Assembly (NCBI RefSeq): GCF_003614945.1
Contig: NZ_QYCZ01000001.1
Location: forward strand, 452,001-516,000
DNA length: 64,000 nucleotides
Direction: 5' to 3'
DNA from: Bergeyella cardium
GTDB taxonomy: Bacteria > Bacteroidota > Bacteroidia > Flavobacteriales > Weeksellaceae
Part shown: positions 31,234-34,545 of the stretch, piece after piece
Position numbering within the stretch: position 1 is the stretch's first letter
Layout of the letters: each line of letters opens with the position of its first letter
The notes under the pieces: model-generated
Seen by the model: only the letters and a program-made list of their open reading frames with translations
Database searches by the model: none
Told to the model about the DNA's origin: nothing
Position numbers and translations under genes: made by a program

Positions 31234-31386
31234 CCCACTGCGTGGGGAGCACTTAGCAGGGGAGGCACTCGTTAGCACGGCAGGCACTTATCCCAAACTA
31301 CCCATCCACCGCTAACAGCTAAAAGCCAGTAACCAACCGCCAATTGCCACGCACTGCCTACTGCTTAAAGCCTACTGCCTATTGCG
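31234..31386. repeat. Dispersed intergenic repeat block, both modules
   Basis: The palindromic module CCCACTGCGTGGGGAGCACT lies at 31234-31253. It is followed by related words (GTTAGCACGGCAGGCACTTA), then the second module with GCTAACAGCTAAAAGCC, ACTGCCTACTGCTTAAAGCC and TACTGCCTATTGCG. The -33 element of the next promoter is inside its end. Confidence 0.75.
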
Positions 31387-31411
31387 TAATAAAAAAATAC
31401 TCTTATATTTG
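31382..31411 (+). promoter_or_regulatory. Promoter of the FISUMP gene leader
   Basis: TTG (31382-31384) is followed after 19 bp by TATATTTG (31404-31411). It predicts a transcript starting near 31417 with a leader of about 395 nt before the FISUMP ATG. Confidence 0.7.
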
Positions 31412-31434
31412 CCTCGCAATTAGATGAAAAAAGG

Positions 31435-31530
31435 ATGAAAAGGAATACCCAAAATATGACAAATATCATATACGCAAACTTGCGTATGTGCAATAATTTG
31501 TTATCCTTCCTTCCTTCCTTCAAAATATAG
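31435..31530 (+). CDS. Putative 31-residue leader peptide in the FISUMP leader
   Basis: A short frame (MKRNTQNMTNIIYANLRMCN, then a Leu/Phe-rich end) begins at ATG 31435 and stops at TAG 31528-31530. The stop is immediately before two strong hairpins. The tetranucleotide tract 31505-31521 lies inside its last third. Its start overlaps the stop of a four-codon frame (ATG at 31424, TGA at 31436). A gain of one 4-bp unit would fuse it to a frame that stays open through the hairpins and the entire FISUMP gene to 33743. Not similar to anything recognised. Coding status is inferred from position and frame only. Confidence 0.45.
   Translation: MKRNTQNMTNIIYANLRMCNNLLSFLPSFKI
31470..31487 (+). other. 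Hairpin inside the leader ORF
   Basis: ATACGCAA and TTGCGTAT form a perfect 8-bp stem with an AC loop. Confidence 0.6.
31505..31521. repeat. Tetranucleotide simple sequence repeat (CCTT)4C
   Basis: Seventeen bases of perfect CCTT repeat lie within the short leader ORF. Slippage by one unit changes the reading frame downstream. Confidence 0.9.
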
Positions 31531-31549
31531 TCTTATTTAAAAGACTATA
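31526..31549 (+). other. Hairpin at the end of the leader ORF
   Basis: TATAGTCTT and AAGACTATA form a perfect 9-bp stem with a 6-nt loop. The TAG stop of the leader ORF is in its left arm. Confidence 0.7.
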
Positions 31550-31553
31550 TAGA

Positions 31554-31600
31554 GCGCCGATAGGCGCGCGGGCTTTGCCCGCGCGCCTATCGGCGCTTTT
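31554..31600 (+). terminator. Perfect 20-bp hairpin with short T tail, candidate attenuator
   Basis: The left arm GCGCCGATAGGCGCGCGGGC (31554-31573) is fully complementary to 31577-31596, with loop TTT and followed by TTTT. It is a very stable GC-rich hairpin within an AT-rich leader, upstream of the FISUMP gene and downstream of its promoter. The T tail is short, so it may act as an attenuator, a transcript-stabilising element or a translation block. Confidence 0.6.
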
Positions 31601-31644
31601 GCGTTTGCCTGCTTCTCACTTTTTCGCTTATGCAGGAGGCAAAG

Positions 31645-31665
31645 TCGCGAGCGAAGCGAGCGACA
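31645..31665 (+). other. Weak hairpin in the FISUMP leader
   Basis: GTCGC (31645-31649) and GCGAC (31661-31665) can pair around an AGCGAAGCG core. Just upstream, TTTGCCTGC (31604-31612) can pair with GCAGGAGGCAAA (31633-31644) with a three-base bulge. Confidence 0.4.
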
Positions 31666-31728
31666 AAGCGCTAGTCAATCTTCTTTTAGAGCAAAATCAG
31701 ACAAGAGTGAAGATAGGGGAGGTGCATT

Positions 31729-31751
31729 GTCGCCAGCCAAAGGCTGGCGAC
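31729..31751 (+). other. Hairpin before the FISUMP start codon
   Basis: GTCGCCAGCC and GGCTGGCGAC form a perfect 10-bp stem with an AAA loop, 61 nt before the ATG. No T run follows. Confidence 0.65.
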
Positions 31752-31811
31752 CCAATTGCAGTTTCTACGCTCAATAATTATTCCCAAGGAAGTAACATAA
31801 ATAATAGATAT

Positions 31812-33743
31812 ATGAGATTTAAAATGATTTTAGCGTTTGTGCTAATAGGAGTATTAGCCAGCGCACAGACAGAGTACGACGGCAGAGTCGGAATCAATAC
31901 AGAGACGCCAAAGGCTACTCTGGATATTTCGCGGAATACAAGTGTATCATCTAGTTCTGTGCAAGGGGTTTTATTCCCAAGAGTAACATCAGTGCAGCGA
32001 GATGCTTTTAATCCTGCAGATGTGGAAGAAGGAACGATGATTTACAATTTAGACAGGAAATGCGTAGAGATATTTTCTAATTCGGGTTGGGACTGTATCT
32101 CTTCGGTTGCGCCTTCTTTGCCACCAGGAGTTACGCTTCAGATAATGGGAGCGGGCTGGGATGGTGTCTTTCAGGCAGGAACAGCCGTAGCCGCAGGTTC
32201 CGGTACGCATAAGGTGAAGCTTCTTATTAATAATACTGGAGCTACGCCTTATACTCAAAACCTTTCTTCTGCAATGACGATTACGAACATTCCTGGCACT
32301 CTGCCAGGGGGCGTTCCTGCACCTACAGGCACAGTAGCTTTGGATGGCGCCCAAAACAGTTCGGTAACGGTAGCACCAGGCACCTCCCAGATTATTTCGT
32401 ATAACCTGAAAGGTATGCCACAGGTAGGGGATATAAAGGCTACTTTCCGTATAGGGATATACAATGTAGAGCAGACCTATACCGTAAGCCAGGGTACGGC
32501 CTTGTTCCAAGACCATAGCATATTTGTATTTTCTTGGAAGGAGGACAGCTCAGTGCAGGGAACGCCTCCGATTGCATCATCTTACCAAGGGAAGATAGAC
32601 GGCAGTATCTACAAGATACCGGTTAAGATACCGTACAAGAACGGAGATGGTAAGTCTTTTGGAGAATTTACTAAGACAGTAAGTATAGGTACAGCACCTA
32701 ACCAGAAGACCTTGAAGCTAACGATACCAGCTGGTAAGCTACACCAATCGCCCAGTACAGGTCTTTATAATGTAATTGGAGGAACATTGGAAGTAATAGA
32801 CGGTACCTACAACGCACCACTATTAGAGGCAGGGAGTGCCGACCAGCTGATAGCTACCATTCCGGTACAGCTAACAAGCGCGATGACGCCATTTAACTTA
32901 AAAGTTTATGCTACGGGAGGTGTTAAGGATAAGCAGTATAACCACGAGACAGCAGGAGTAGCCGGCAGGTATGAGCACCGCTTTGTGTATAGCAAAGTAA
33001 TGACGTATGACGGGCAGATATGGCTAGACAAGAACCTTGGGGCATACTATGCCGATGCAAACCGTATAGCAGACTTTGGTAATGACCAGACCTATGCGAA
33101 GCGTAACCCAGTTAATGAGAGTATAGATTACCGAATGCTAGGCTCCGTATTCCAGTGGGGTAGGGATGCCGATGGCCACGAACTGGTGGACTGGCCAAGT
33201 AGTCTTGTAGGGGTGGTAGAGCCTACTAAGGGAAATTACTTTAAATATACTAACATTAGTCAGTTTCCTTCAGGTACTGTTACTAATGCTTGGAAGCGAC
33301 CTGAAAATATGACTAGTTATACTGCTCTTGTTAGTGGTTTTACAGATAACTGCCCAAGTGGATGGCATACCCCTACACTAACAGAAATTCAAGCTTGGGG
33401 ATTAAAGGTTTCTGGGAATGCTCTTGGAGCACGTTCGGAGGGCTACAGAGGTGGTTTTACAACAGAGATTGGACGCCTTGGAGGAGGATATTGGAAGGGG
33501 GAGGGGGATAAGGTTTATTCTCTAAGAATGGGGGATTCTCCATATTTTCATACAACTACACCATTTTCTAATGATAGATTTAATGCTTTCACAGCTTATT
33601 CATATGAGTATAATCCATTGCTCAAAATTCCACAGGCTTTAGATCCACTAATATATCCAGGTAATCATAGTTCATATACCTTGTCTTCTGATAGCAACTT
33701 ATATCGATACAGTGCTGTGCCTATCCGCTGTATAAAAGACTAA
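31812..33743 (+). CDS. Exported FISUMP-domain protein
   Basis: A 643-residue protein starting at ATG 31812 with a clear signal peptide (MILAFVLIGVLASAQ). The N-terminus YDGRVGINTETPKATLDIS is common among Flavobacteriia surface proteins. A beta-rich middle follows. The C-terminal FISUMP (Fib_succ_major) domain starts near residue 395, with DGQIWLDKNLGA, GSVFQWGRDADGHE and CPSGWHTPTLTEIQAW, and a final AVPIRCIKD. The protein is probably displayed on the cell surface; function unknown. The reading frame is open for about 280 nt upstream of the ATG, but no signal peptide is there. The DNA encoding the last ~170 residues is clearly more AT-rich than the middle, hinting at a recombined cassette. 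Confidence 0.82.
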   Translation: MRFKMILAFVLIGVLASAQTEYDGRVGINTETPKATLDISRNTSVSSSSVQGVLFPRVTSVQRDAFNPADVEEGTMIYNLDRKCVEIFSNSGWDCISSVAPSLPPGVTLQIMGAGWDGVFQAGTAVAAGSGTHKVKLLINNTGATPYTQNLSSAMTITNIPGTLPGGVPAPTGTVALDGAQNSSVTVAPGTSQIISYNLKGMPQVGDIKATFRIGIYNVEQTYTVSQGTALFQDHSIFVFSWKEDSSVQGTPPIASSYQGKIDGSIYKIPVKIPYKNGDGKSFGEFTKTVSIGTAPNQKTLKLTIPAGKLHQSPSTGLYNVIGGTLEVIDGTYNAPLLEAGSADQLIATIPVQLTSAMTPFNLKVYATGGVKDKQYNHETAGVAGRYEHRFVYSKVMTYDGQIWLDKNLGAYYADANRIADFGNDQTYAKRNPVNESIDYRMLGSVFQWGRDADGHELVDWPSSLVGVVEPTKGNYFKYTNISQFPSGTVTNAWKRPENMTSYTALVSGFTDNCPSGWHTPTLTEIQAWGLKVSGNALGARSEGYRGGFTTEIGRLGGGYWKGEGDKVYSLRMGDSPYFHTTTPFSNDRFNAFTAYSYEYNPLLKIPQALDPLIYPGNHSSYTLSSDSNLYRYSAVPIRCIKD

Positions 33744-33828: not shown

Positions 33829-34545
33829 ATGAAAAATACTTTAAAAGCGTGGCTAAGAGATAACCCTCTTACCAGCGACCCATCAGATTTTGTAGGCGTA
33901 CCCGCAAACGTAGGGAGCGTAAGCATCGCAGAGATTGTAGCAGAGCTCAAAAAAGAAGGTATGGAGATAAAAGAGGAGACGGCAATAGACATTGTTTCCC
34001 GCTTTAATCGCAAGAGCACAGAGCTTGTGCTCCAAGGCTATGTAGTGAATACAGGTCTCGTGATAATGCGCCCAGCGATAAAAGGTGTCTTTAAAGACAA
34101 AGTCTGGGATAAGGACAAGCACAGCGTCTATGTAAATGTTAATCAAGGTGCCGAGCTAAGGAAGGCAATCTCTCAAACCAAAGTAGAATTCCTTGGCGAG
34201 CAATCTAGCCCAATGGCAATCTTCGGTATTACCGACCTCAGCACTGGCAAAACGGATGGCACCCTCACCAAAGGCAAGAATGCCGAGATTAAAGGGACTT
34301 ACCTCAAGGTTGCAGGCACTCACACAGATAATGGTGTCTATCTCACGAATATAGACACCAAAGCCAAGACTAAGCTCACCGACCTTGTGATTAATGAGCC
34401 CGCTCGTCTTTTGGTGCTTATCCCCGCCTCGCTCCCCGCAGGCAACTACGAGCTGAGCATCACAACGCAGTTTAGCAGTGGTAAGAATGTCTTCCTCAAA
34501 GAGCCTCGCACAGATATTTTGGACACTATAATAGTCCTATCCTAA
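33829..34545 (+). CDS. HU-like DNA-binding protein with DUF4469 domain
   Basis: A 238-residue protein without signal peptide. Residues 1-120 resemble the atypical HU/IHF-like fold found in Bacteroidota (SIAEIVAELKKEGMEIKEET, FNRKSTELVLQGYVVNTGLV, RPAIKGVFKDKVWD). Residues 125-238 fit the DUF4469 beta-sandwich, with GTYLKVAGTHTDNGVYLTN, EPARLLVLIPASLPAGNYEL and SITTQFSSG. Such proteins are thought to bind DNA, but the targets are unknown. The GC-rich codon use differs from rpoBC. It lies 85 nt after the FISUMP gene beyond a terminator and directly before a palindromic 23-bp array. No clear promoter was found. Confidence 0.75.
   Translation: MKNTLKAWLRDNPLTSDPSDFVGVPANVGSVSIAEIVAELKKEGMEIKEETAIDIVSRFNRKSTELVLQGYVVNTGLVIMRPAIKGVFKDKVWDKDKHSVYVNVNQGAELRKAISQTKVEFLGEQSSPMAIFGITDLSTGKTDGTLTKGKNAEIKGTYLKVAGTHTDNGVYLTNIDTKAKTKLTDLVINEPARLLVLIPASLPAGNYELSITTQFSSGKNVFLKEPRTDILDTIIVLS

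Follow-up and report, generated by a model that had tools for sequence, protein, structure and literature searches.

The closest described system is the pil1 locus of S. gallolyticus, in which GCAGA repeats are located within a leader peptide and longer leader peptides prevent a terminator and raise transcription, a mechanism shown by repeat variants, by deletion of the terminator and by mutation of the start signal (Danne et al. 2014, PMC3894217). Repeat-phased attenuation is thus proven at pil1, and it is indicated by repeat variants at pil3 (PMC3894217). Both loci belong to a Firmicute, carry a pentanucleotide repeat, with 22 (pil1) and 13 (pil3) units in UCN34, and show observed switching. 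For the surface-gene family considered below, phase variation has already been suspected. A published system includes the same kind of surface gene together with a special upstream sequence, and its accessible text names no repeat, leader ORF or attenuator; no mechanism is given in the accessible part of PMC6421346. In the literature searched, which took in few subscription papers, no description was found of the leader logic reported here.

The window is a stretch of 64,000 nucleotides (positions 452001-516000 of contig C1) from a genome of 1.96 Mb. The leader in front of one of its surface genes resembles pil1 and pil3 in that a repeat lies within a leader-peptide ORF and its phase places the end of the leader either before or within/after a hairpin, which at pil1 and pil3 precedes a surface operon. 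It differs from both in an open phase that extends as far as the gene or enters it, and in the recurrence of the design at many loci in relatives; in addition, both other phases raise expression at pil1, whereas one of three phases is predicted to read through in the window design. As judged from its sequence, the leader is best described as a repeat-phased attenuator, an architecture supported by the comparisons given below, and it is probably phase-variable, controlled by translation and at present in an OFF-like state.

All features of the window described here are on the plus strand. A Bacteroidota-type promoter, TTGC ... TATATTTG, is located at 31382..31411; the consensus of Bacteroidota promoters is TAnnTTTG. 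It is followed by a leader ORF of 31 codons (31435..31530, with the stop TAG at 31528-31530) for the peptide MKRNTQNMTNIIYANLRMCNNLLSFLPSFKI, and the simple sequence repeat (CCTT)4 is located within this predicted ORF at 31505..31520, followed by C at 31521, as is characteristic of the pil1 type. These elements, together with the hairpins and the stop-free frame behind them, had been proposed in the initial annotation, and all of them were confirmed by reading the sequence. When the whole window genome was searched, CCTTCCTTCCTTCC was confined to four leader copies and (AC)7 was absent. No known structured RNA of Rfam 15 was detected in the window at the gathering score. An amino-acid-sensing leader peptide of the trp type contains a run of codons for the regulating amino acid, and no such run is present among the 31 codons of the leader.

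The surface gene itself (31812..33743) has a signal-peptide-like start as judged by eye. The FISUMP label given to it earlier is retained here as FISUMP-like, because its match to TIGR02145 and PF09603 is below threshold (16.5 bits, where 41.65 and 33.9 are required); c396k, the only paralog scanned, gave 28.2 and 23.8 bits, also below the curated cut-offs. The last gene of the cassette (33829..34545) encodes a protein with an HU-like DNA-binding domain (PF14848, E 4.8e-39) and DUF4469 (PF14734, E 1.5e-29).

The frame of the surface gene is stop-free from 31497 to 31811, linking the tract to the gene over 105 codons upstream of the ATG at 31812. Such an opening is unlikely by chance: among 5000 dinucleotide shuffles of 31521-31811 the gene frame was open in 17 and any of the three frames in 34, against an initial estimate of about 1 in 100. 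With the present tract the leader ORF has 31 codons; addition of one unit gives 770 codons and of two units 37, and loss of one unit gives 33 codons and of two units 766. The joining of both frames into 770 codons upon gain of one unit thus holds as proposed initially. The joined 770-codon product would contain the signal-peptide-like start MRFKMILAFVLIGVLASAQ about 127 residues from its N terminus, and for this reason it is unlikely to be the functional product. Translation more likely starts at the ATG of the surface gene itself, once a ribosome that holds the RNA open has arrived there.

The leader is highly structured. The fold of 394 nt reached -152.5 kcal/mol (z -11.1) and was equaled in none of 100 shuffles. 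One hairpin (31467..31490) is formed within the leader ORF on the 5' side of the tract, and the 50 nt directly before the tract fold with -17.6 kcal/mol (z -4.9). Hairpin 1 (31525..31550; 10 bp in the predicted fold) carries the leader stop codon in its 5' arm. Hairpin 2 is a perfect inverted repeat as described in the initial annotation, although of 21 bp (31553-31573/31577-31597) instead of 20 bp, and is terminator-like with a weak T-run, TTTTGCG; as a terminator it passes one scan and fails a stricter T-run filter. A further perfect hairpin, read from the sequence, is located near the surface gene at 31730..31750.

On the basis of this anatomy, the following course of events is proposed. 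Transcription would start just after 31411, and a ribosome would translate the leader ORF of 31 codons, passing over the CCTT tract. Two of the three phases are predicted to halt the ribosome about 10 or 20 nt past the tract, upon which the 21-bp hairpin could form and transcription of the surface gene would presumably be terminated or reduced. In the third phase the ribosome would follow the polymerase through the hairpins to the surface gene, keeping the hairpins open, and expression would be raised, with translation either restarting at the ATG of the gene or yielding a fusion. The scheme supposes that the window tract slips at a useful rate. All four close copies of the leader are in a stopping phase at present.

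Three close copies of the leader, 97, 93 and 92% identical to that of the window, and a diverged fifth copy of 69% identity were identified in the window genome, and the similarity among copies spans the whole cassette of leader, FISUMP-like gene and HU/DUF4469 gene. The -7 box TATATTTG is shared by the three other close copies, and the fifth has CATCTTTG, off the consensus. The leader peptide is identical in three of the four close copies, with three residue changes in the remaining one. Paralogous leaders with different unit numbers, which the initial annotation had raised, were not found in the genome search: the tract consists of four units in 4/4 close copies, all in the phase stopping before the second hairpin. 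The joined frame is likewise free of stops in all four (105, 105, 109 and 109 codons open upstream of the gene), and by frame arithmetic a change in unit number moves the leader stop, which now precedes the hairpin, to a position past it in each of them. Stops in the joined frame of paralogs were to be taken as refuting the switch; with 4/4 close copies open they do not refute it, although one is present in the fifth copy, which is without the CCTT tract and whose gene frame closes a single codon ahead of the ATG.

The stretch after the tract includes 30 variable columns among the four close copies, distributed 8/12/10 by codon position, and one indel, of 12 nt, and amino-acid-changing codon differences exceed silent ones in 6/6 pairs. 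With no codon-position bias and an excess of amino-acid-changing differences, the stretch is unlike a selected protein and yet stop-free; the lack of protein-type constraint is expected if the absence of stops is all that matters. The four close copies are related and may convert each other, so that they do not represent four independent cases.

The hairpins are conserved to different extents among the copies. In the hairpin before the tract, pairs are kept through one-sided changes in copy c1430k, and several pairs are broken in the fifth copy. In the stem of hairpin 2, the fifth copy has four pairs with substitutions in both arms that retain pairing, and one pair is broken in copy c396k. Two close copies have AAA and the other two TTT as the 3-nt loop of the hairpin at 31730-31750, with the stem kept. 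The fifth copy encodes a related leader peptide of 27 residues (E 0.0055), followed by a hairpin that, by eye, is different from hairpin 1 at the same position, and then by the long hairpin; its HU gene is truncated. An interspersed repeat of the REP or MITE-like kind was rejected as the origin of the hairpins, because the leader search gave matches (E <= 0.001) at the five leader copies only.

Upstream of other GINT-type genes of the window genome, no repeat longer than 12 nt was found by the script rule at the seven places covered (L244, L245, L247-L250 and L253, of which L247 is the fifth copy); at L246, L251 and L252 the rule gave no gene start. L244 and L245 (C1:363431 and C1:1751039) are two copies of another GINT-type gene with a common leader, composed of a promoter and a short ORF that runs, by eye, through a terminator-like hairpin, without a repeat.

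Comparison was extended to 320 genomes of the family, among which the window genome is the sole member of its own genus. The FISUMP-like protein as query detected no relative on the genome contigs searched, and alignment of the HU/DUF4469 protein was used instead. This protein is present in 12/320 genomes at E <= 1e-40, the window genome included, four of the matches being distant (34-38%); full-length matches are 65-69% identical in the relatives' genomes used. The relatives include Riemerella columbina DSM 16469, R. anatipestifer CCUG25054 and Bergeyella zoohelcum ATCC 43767. Many leaders of Riemerella, Bergeyella and one further genus carry an AC tract inside the leader ORF, and TGTAA(AC)8 occurs in 8/320 family genomes of three genera. 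These AC leaders share with the window leader the promoter type, a leader ORF before and across the tract and one read-through phase of three, and those found by the HU/DUF4469 gene have a neighbor of that family; they differ in the dinucleotide unit and in the hairpin before the tract, which is clear in some genomes only (median z in Riemerella -3.8 and -4.0 for two genomes and -6.5 for another, which has two leaders; -2.1 in the further genus; weak values of -0.9 for R. columbina and -1.25 for B. zoohelcum).

The DNA of one AC leader (L094) matched 3 to 42 pieces in each of seven of the eight genomes chosen and none in the window genome. Among 58 relatives, 12 gave weak matches of 22-54 nt to the window leader; the one such locus inspected in full (L019) was by eye the promoter region of another gene. 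AC leaders were accepted by the rule of a promoter TAnnTTTG, an ATG with an open path and a tract of at least four units. A total of 62 out of 78 stretches from L094 matches, which covered more places than those 78, passed the rule, and 20 leaders were added from 36 stretches chosen by the HU/DUF4469 gene, often contig-edge or distant matches. From 85 rows, three non-leader or nested ones were removed to leave 82, and four cut by a contig edge to leave 78. The 16 stretches that failed the rule are outside the phase count: nine have a tract of 6-9 nt, L190 and L197 have a long tract and no TAnnTTTG at the usual place, and the remaining five (L214, L215, L216, L232 and L238, genus g29) represent a second type of AC-tract leader, with the ATG 8 nt before the tract. 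L111 was left out as a duplicate of L109, even though the AC tracts of these duplicated cassettes of one genome (G330), identical in the flanks compared, are 9 and 31 nt, respectively.

In 71/82 AC leaders the ATG is located 79 nt before the tract. Exactly one of the three phases runs more than 150 nt past the tract in 76/78, the exceptions being L167 and L220 (the interrupted tract of L169, 15 and 13 nt, was counted by its first part), and the median positions of the stops are 6, 33 and 384 nt after the tract for the three phases. When rows with N were left out, the same rule held for 68/70, whereas 200 shuffles averaged 6 and never exceeded 13, and the reverse strand gave 8. Most AC leaders belong to a single family of copies and are not independent cases; the design has been kept many times rather than having arisen many times.

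The long phase leads to a gene. By a looser rule tied to the stop, an ORF of at least 60 codons starts within -12..+120 nt of the read-through stop in 67/76 leaders, compared with 9/76 for the middle-phase stop. By a hydrophobic-start rule (ORF of 100 codons) a gene was assigned to 72/76, at distances of 0-60 nt in 39 cases, negative in 5 and larger in 28. The read-through stop is well beyond the gene start in 4/72, a fifth overlaps the start by 4 nt, and joined ORFs may thus occur among AC leaders as well. The downstream genes inspected have signal-peptide-like starts, which the script rule favored.

The present phase is the read-through phase in 13/78 AC leaders, and in 13/67 of those with a tract longer than 11 nt; AC tracts reach up to 119 nt. 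The two single genomes with 22 and 24 analyzed AC leaders have most of them in a stopping phase. At matching Riemerella loci, identified by their upstream flanks, none of the 11 between-genome pairs listed, covering nine loci, has tracts of equal length (for example, 31 vs 79 nt and 57 vs 9 nt). The invariance that was to count against a switch is thus observed within the window genome and not at the matching loci of relatives. As for the switch tuned by repeat length that was originally suggested, its design as a repeat-phased attenuator is supported by the relatives and by pil1, but the support does not extend to active slippage at a tract of 16 bp: a tract of four units that is the same in each of the four copies, unlike the widely varying AC tracts, may not slip often. 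It is conceivable, albeit rather unlikely, that the tract was reduced to four units and no longer changes, the leader being a locked-OFF relic of a once variable switch in which gene conversion keeps the copies in step. Consistent with such a relic are the common unit number and stopping phase of the four close copies, their 92-97% identity to the window leader within cassettes that look mosaic, and the state of the relatives' tracts, since those of 11 nt or less are in a stopping phase in 11/11 cases against 54/67 of the longer ones. The joined frame, however, has stayed stop-free in all four copies despite the 30 variable columns and the indel, which argues against a relic.

The CCTT unit itself was searched for in the family, and tracts of (CCTT)4.5 or longer were found in 8/320 genomes. 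R. anatipestifer CCUG25054 and a sister genome carry it at the same locus (L269 and L270; 96% identity over the 401-nt leader) within a leader ORF, where it is read as FLPS repeats, with 28 nt (seven units) in the former vs 40 nt (ten units) in the latter. Two phases stop 6 and 10 nt past the tract, the third comes to its stop 4 nt short of the next gene, and in R. anatipestifer this third phase crosses a strong terminator that passes the stricter filter (stem of at least 16 pairs and a T-run). This leader is like that of the window in the CCTT unit, the FLPS reading, the stops just past the tract, the hairpin and the read-through to the gene, and differs in the unit number, the strength of the terminator and the downstream gene; it has no clear hairpin before the tract. 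No DNA match to it was found in the window genome, and since the window leader matches neither this leader nor L094, what the comparison shows is a shared design rather than homology. In the other six genomes (L263-L267 and L268) no leader design was recognized by eye. L268 (G331:C1:1735367), with 20 CCTT units, was rejected as a leader, its repeat being interpreted as a coding tract seen from the reverse strand; it lies beside an apparent gene on the opposite strand and is likely a coding contingency locus.

Terminator-like elements are unevenly distributed among the AC leaders. By the stricter T-run filter they were detected in 30/74 leaders (shuffle mean 0.5, maximum 1; reverse strand 9) and by the other filter in 25/71 (shuffle mean 4.0), rows with N or without a long phase being left out, and in none of nine B. 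zoohelcum leaders by either filter. In many AC leaders control may therefore be exerted through Rho or translational coupling, and another stopping route such as Rho is likely in many of them. For the window leader it is doubtful that phase variation works through translational coupling or Rho-dependent polarity instead of an intrinsic terminator, with re-initiation at the gene start or with RNA shielded from Rho. The weak T-run of hairpin 2, the absence of a terminator-like element from 44/74 AC leaders and the read-through stops near an ORF start in 67/76, including L058 where the stop overlaps the start, are in line with coupling or Rho. The strong terminator of the Riemerella CCTT leader is not, and simple stop-start coupling does not apply to the window, because its open frame is continuous with the gene.

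An ordinary structured 5' leader with an upstream ORF, in which tract and open frame are incidental, is improbable: the fifth copy, which has retained the leader ORF and the hairpins but has neither tract nor open frame, would suit it, but the gene frame is open by chance in 17/5000 shuffles and the three-phase logic holds in 76/78 leaders of relatives. That the 770-codon ORF is an original gene split by a frameshift, the open stretch being an N-terminal extension of the surface protein, accounts for a frame open in all four close copies but is highly improbable given the signal-peptide-like start at 31812, a fifth copy without the extension, the excess of amino-acid-changing differences in 6/6 pairs and the lack of codon-position bias.

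The repeat-phased attenuator is thus retained for the window leader, and on balance we favor a wider reading, in which it is one member of a multi-locus contingency system of this branch of Bacteroidota. In such a system the repeat tract of each translated leader, AC in some lineages and CCTT in others, would determine whether ribosomes escort transcription through the leader to the gene, as they would in one phase out of three; up to two dozen or more cassettes would exist per genome, each with its own leader and many with a signal-peptide-like first gene. The same leader logic would recur in leader sequences without DNA similarity, the window genome keeping a four-copy CCTT version. If this is true, it would be a widespread means of varying surface gene expression in animal-associated Bacteroidota, and it would provide a plain genomic rule for finding such leaders in non-coding DNA, namely that a single phase of the three is open and that it extends to the gene.

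The HU-like/DUF4469 protein ends those cassettes that were found by searching with it, and in one genome (G337) the same gene for a transposase-like protein (by eye) of 292 aa adjoins the HU/DUF4469 cassettes at L092, L093, L098 and L091. The surface gene of the window (31812-33743) and those at L009, L010 and L011 are similar at their 5' ends and 3' flanks and diverged in the middles or C-termini, the window gene being closest to c1819k and c396k closest to c1430k. This mosaic pattern looks like recombination between cassettes, which could add another route to antigen variation. Elsewhere in the window genome, on another contig (C2:72615-72749), lies a remnant of the HU/DUF4469 gene that is 45 residues long and 93% identical.
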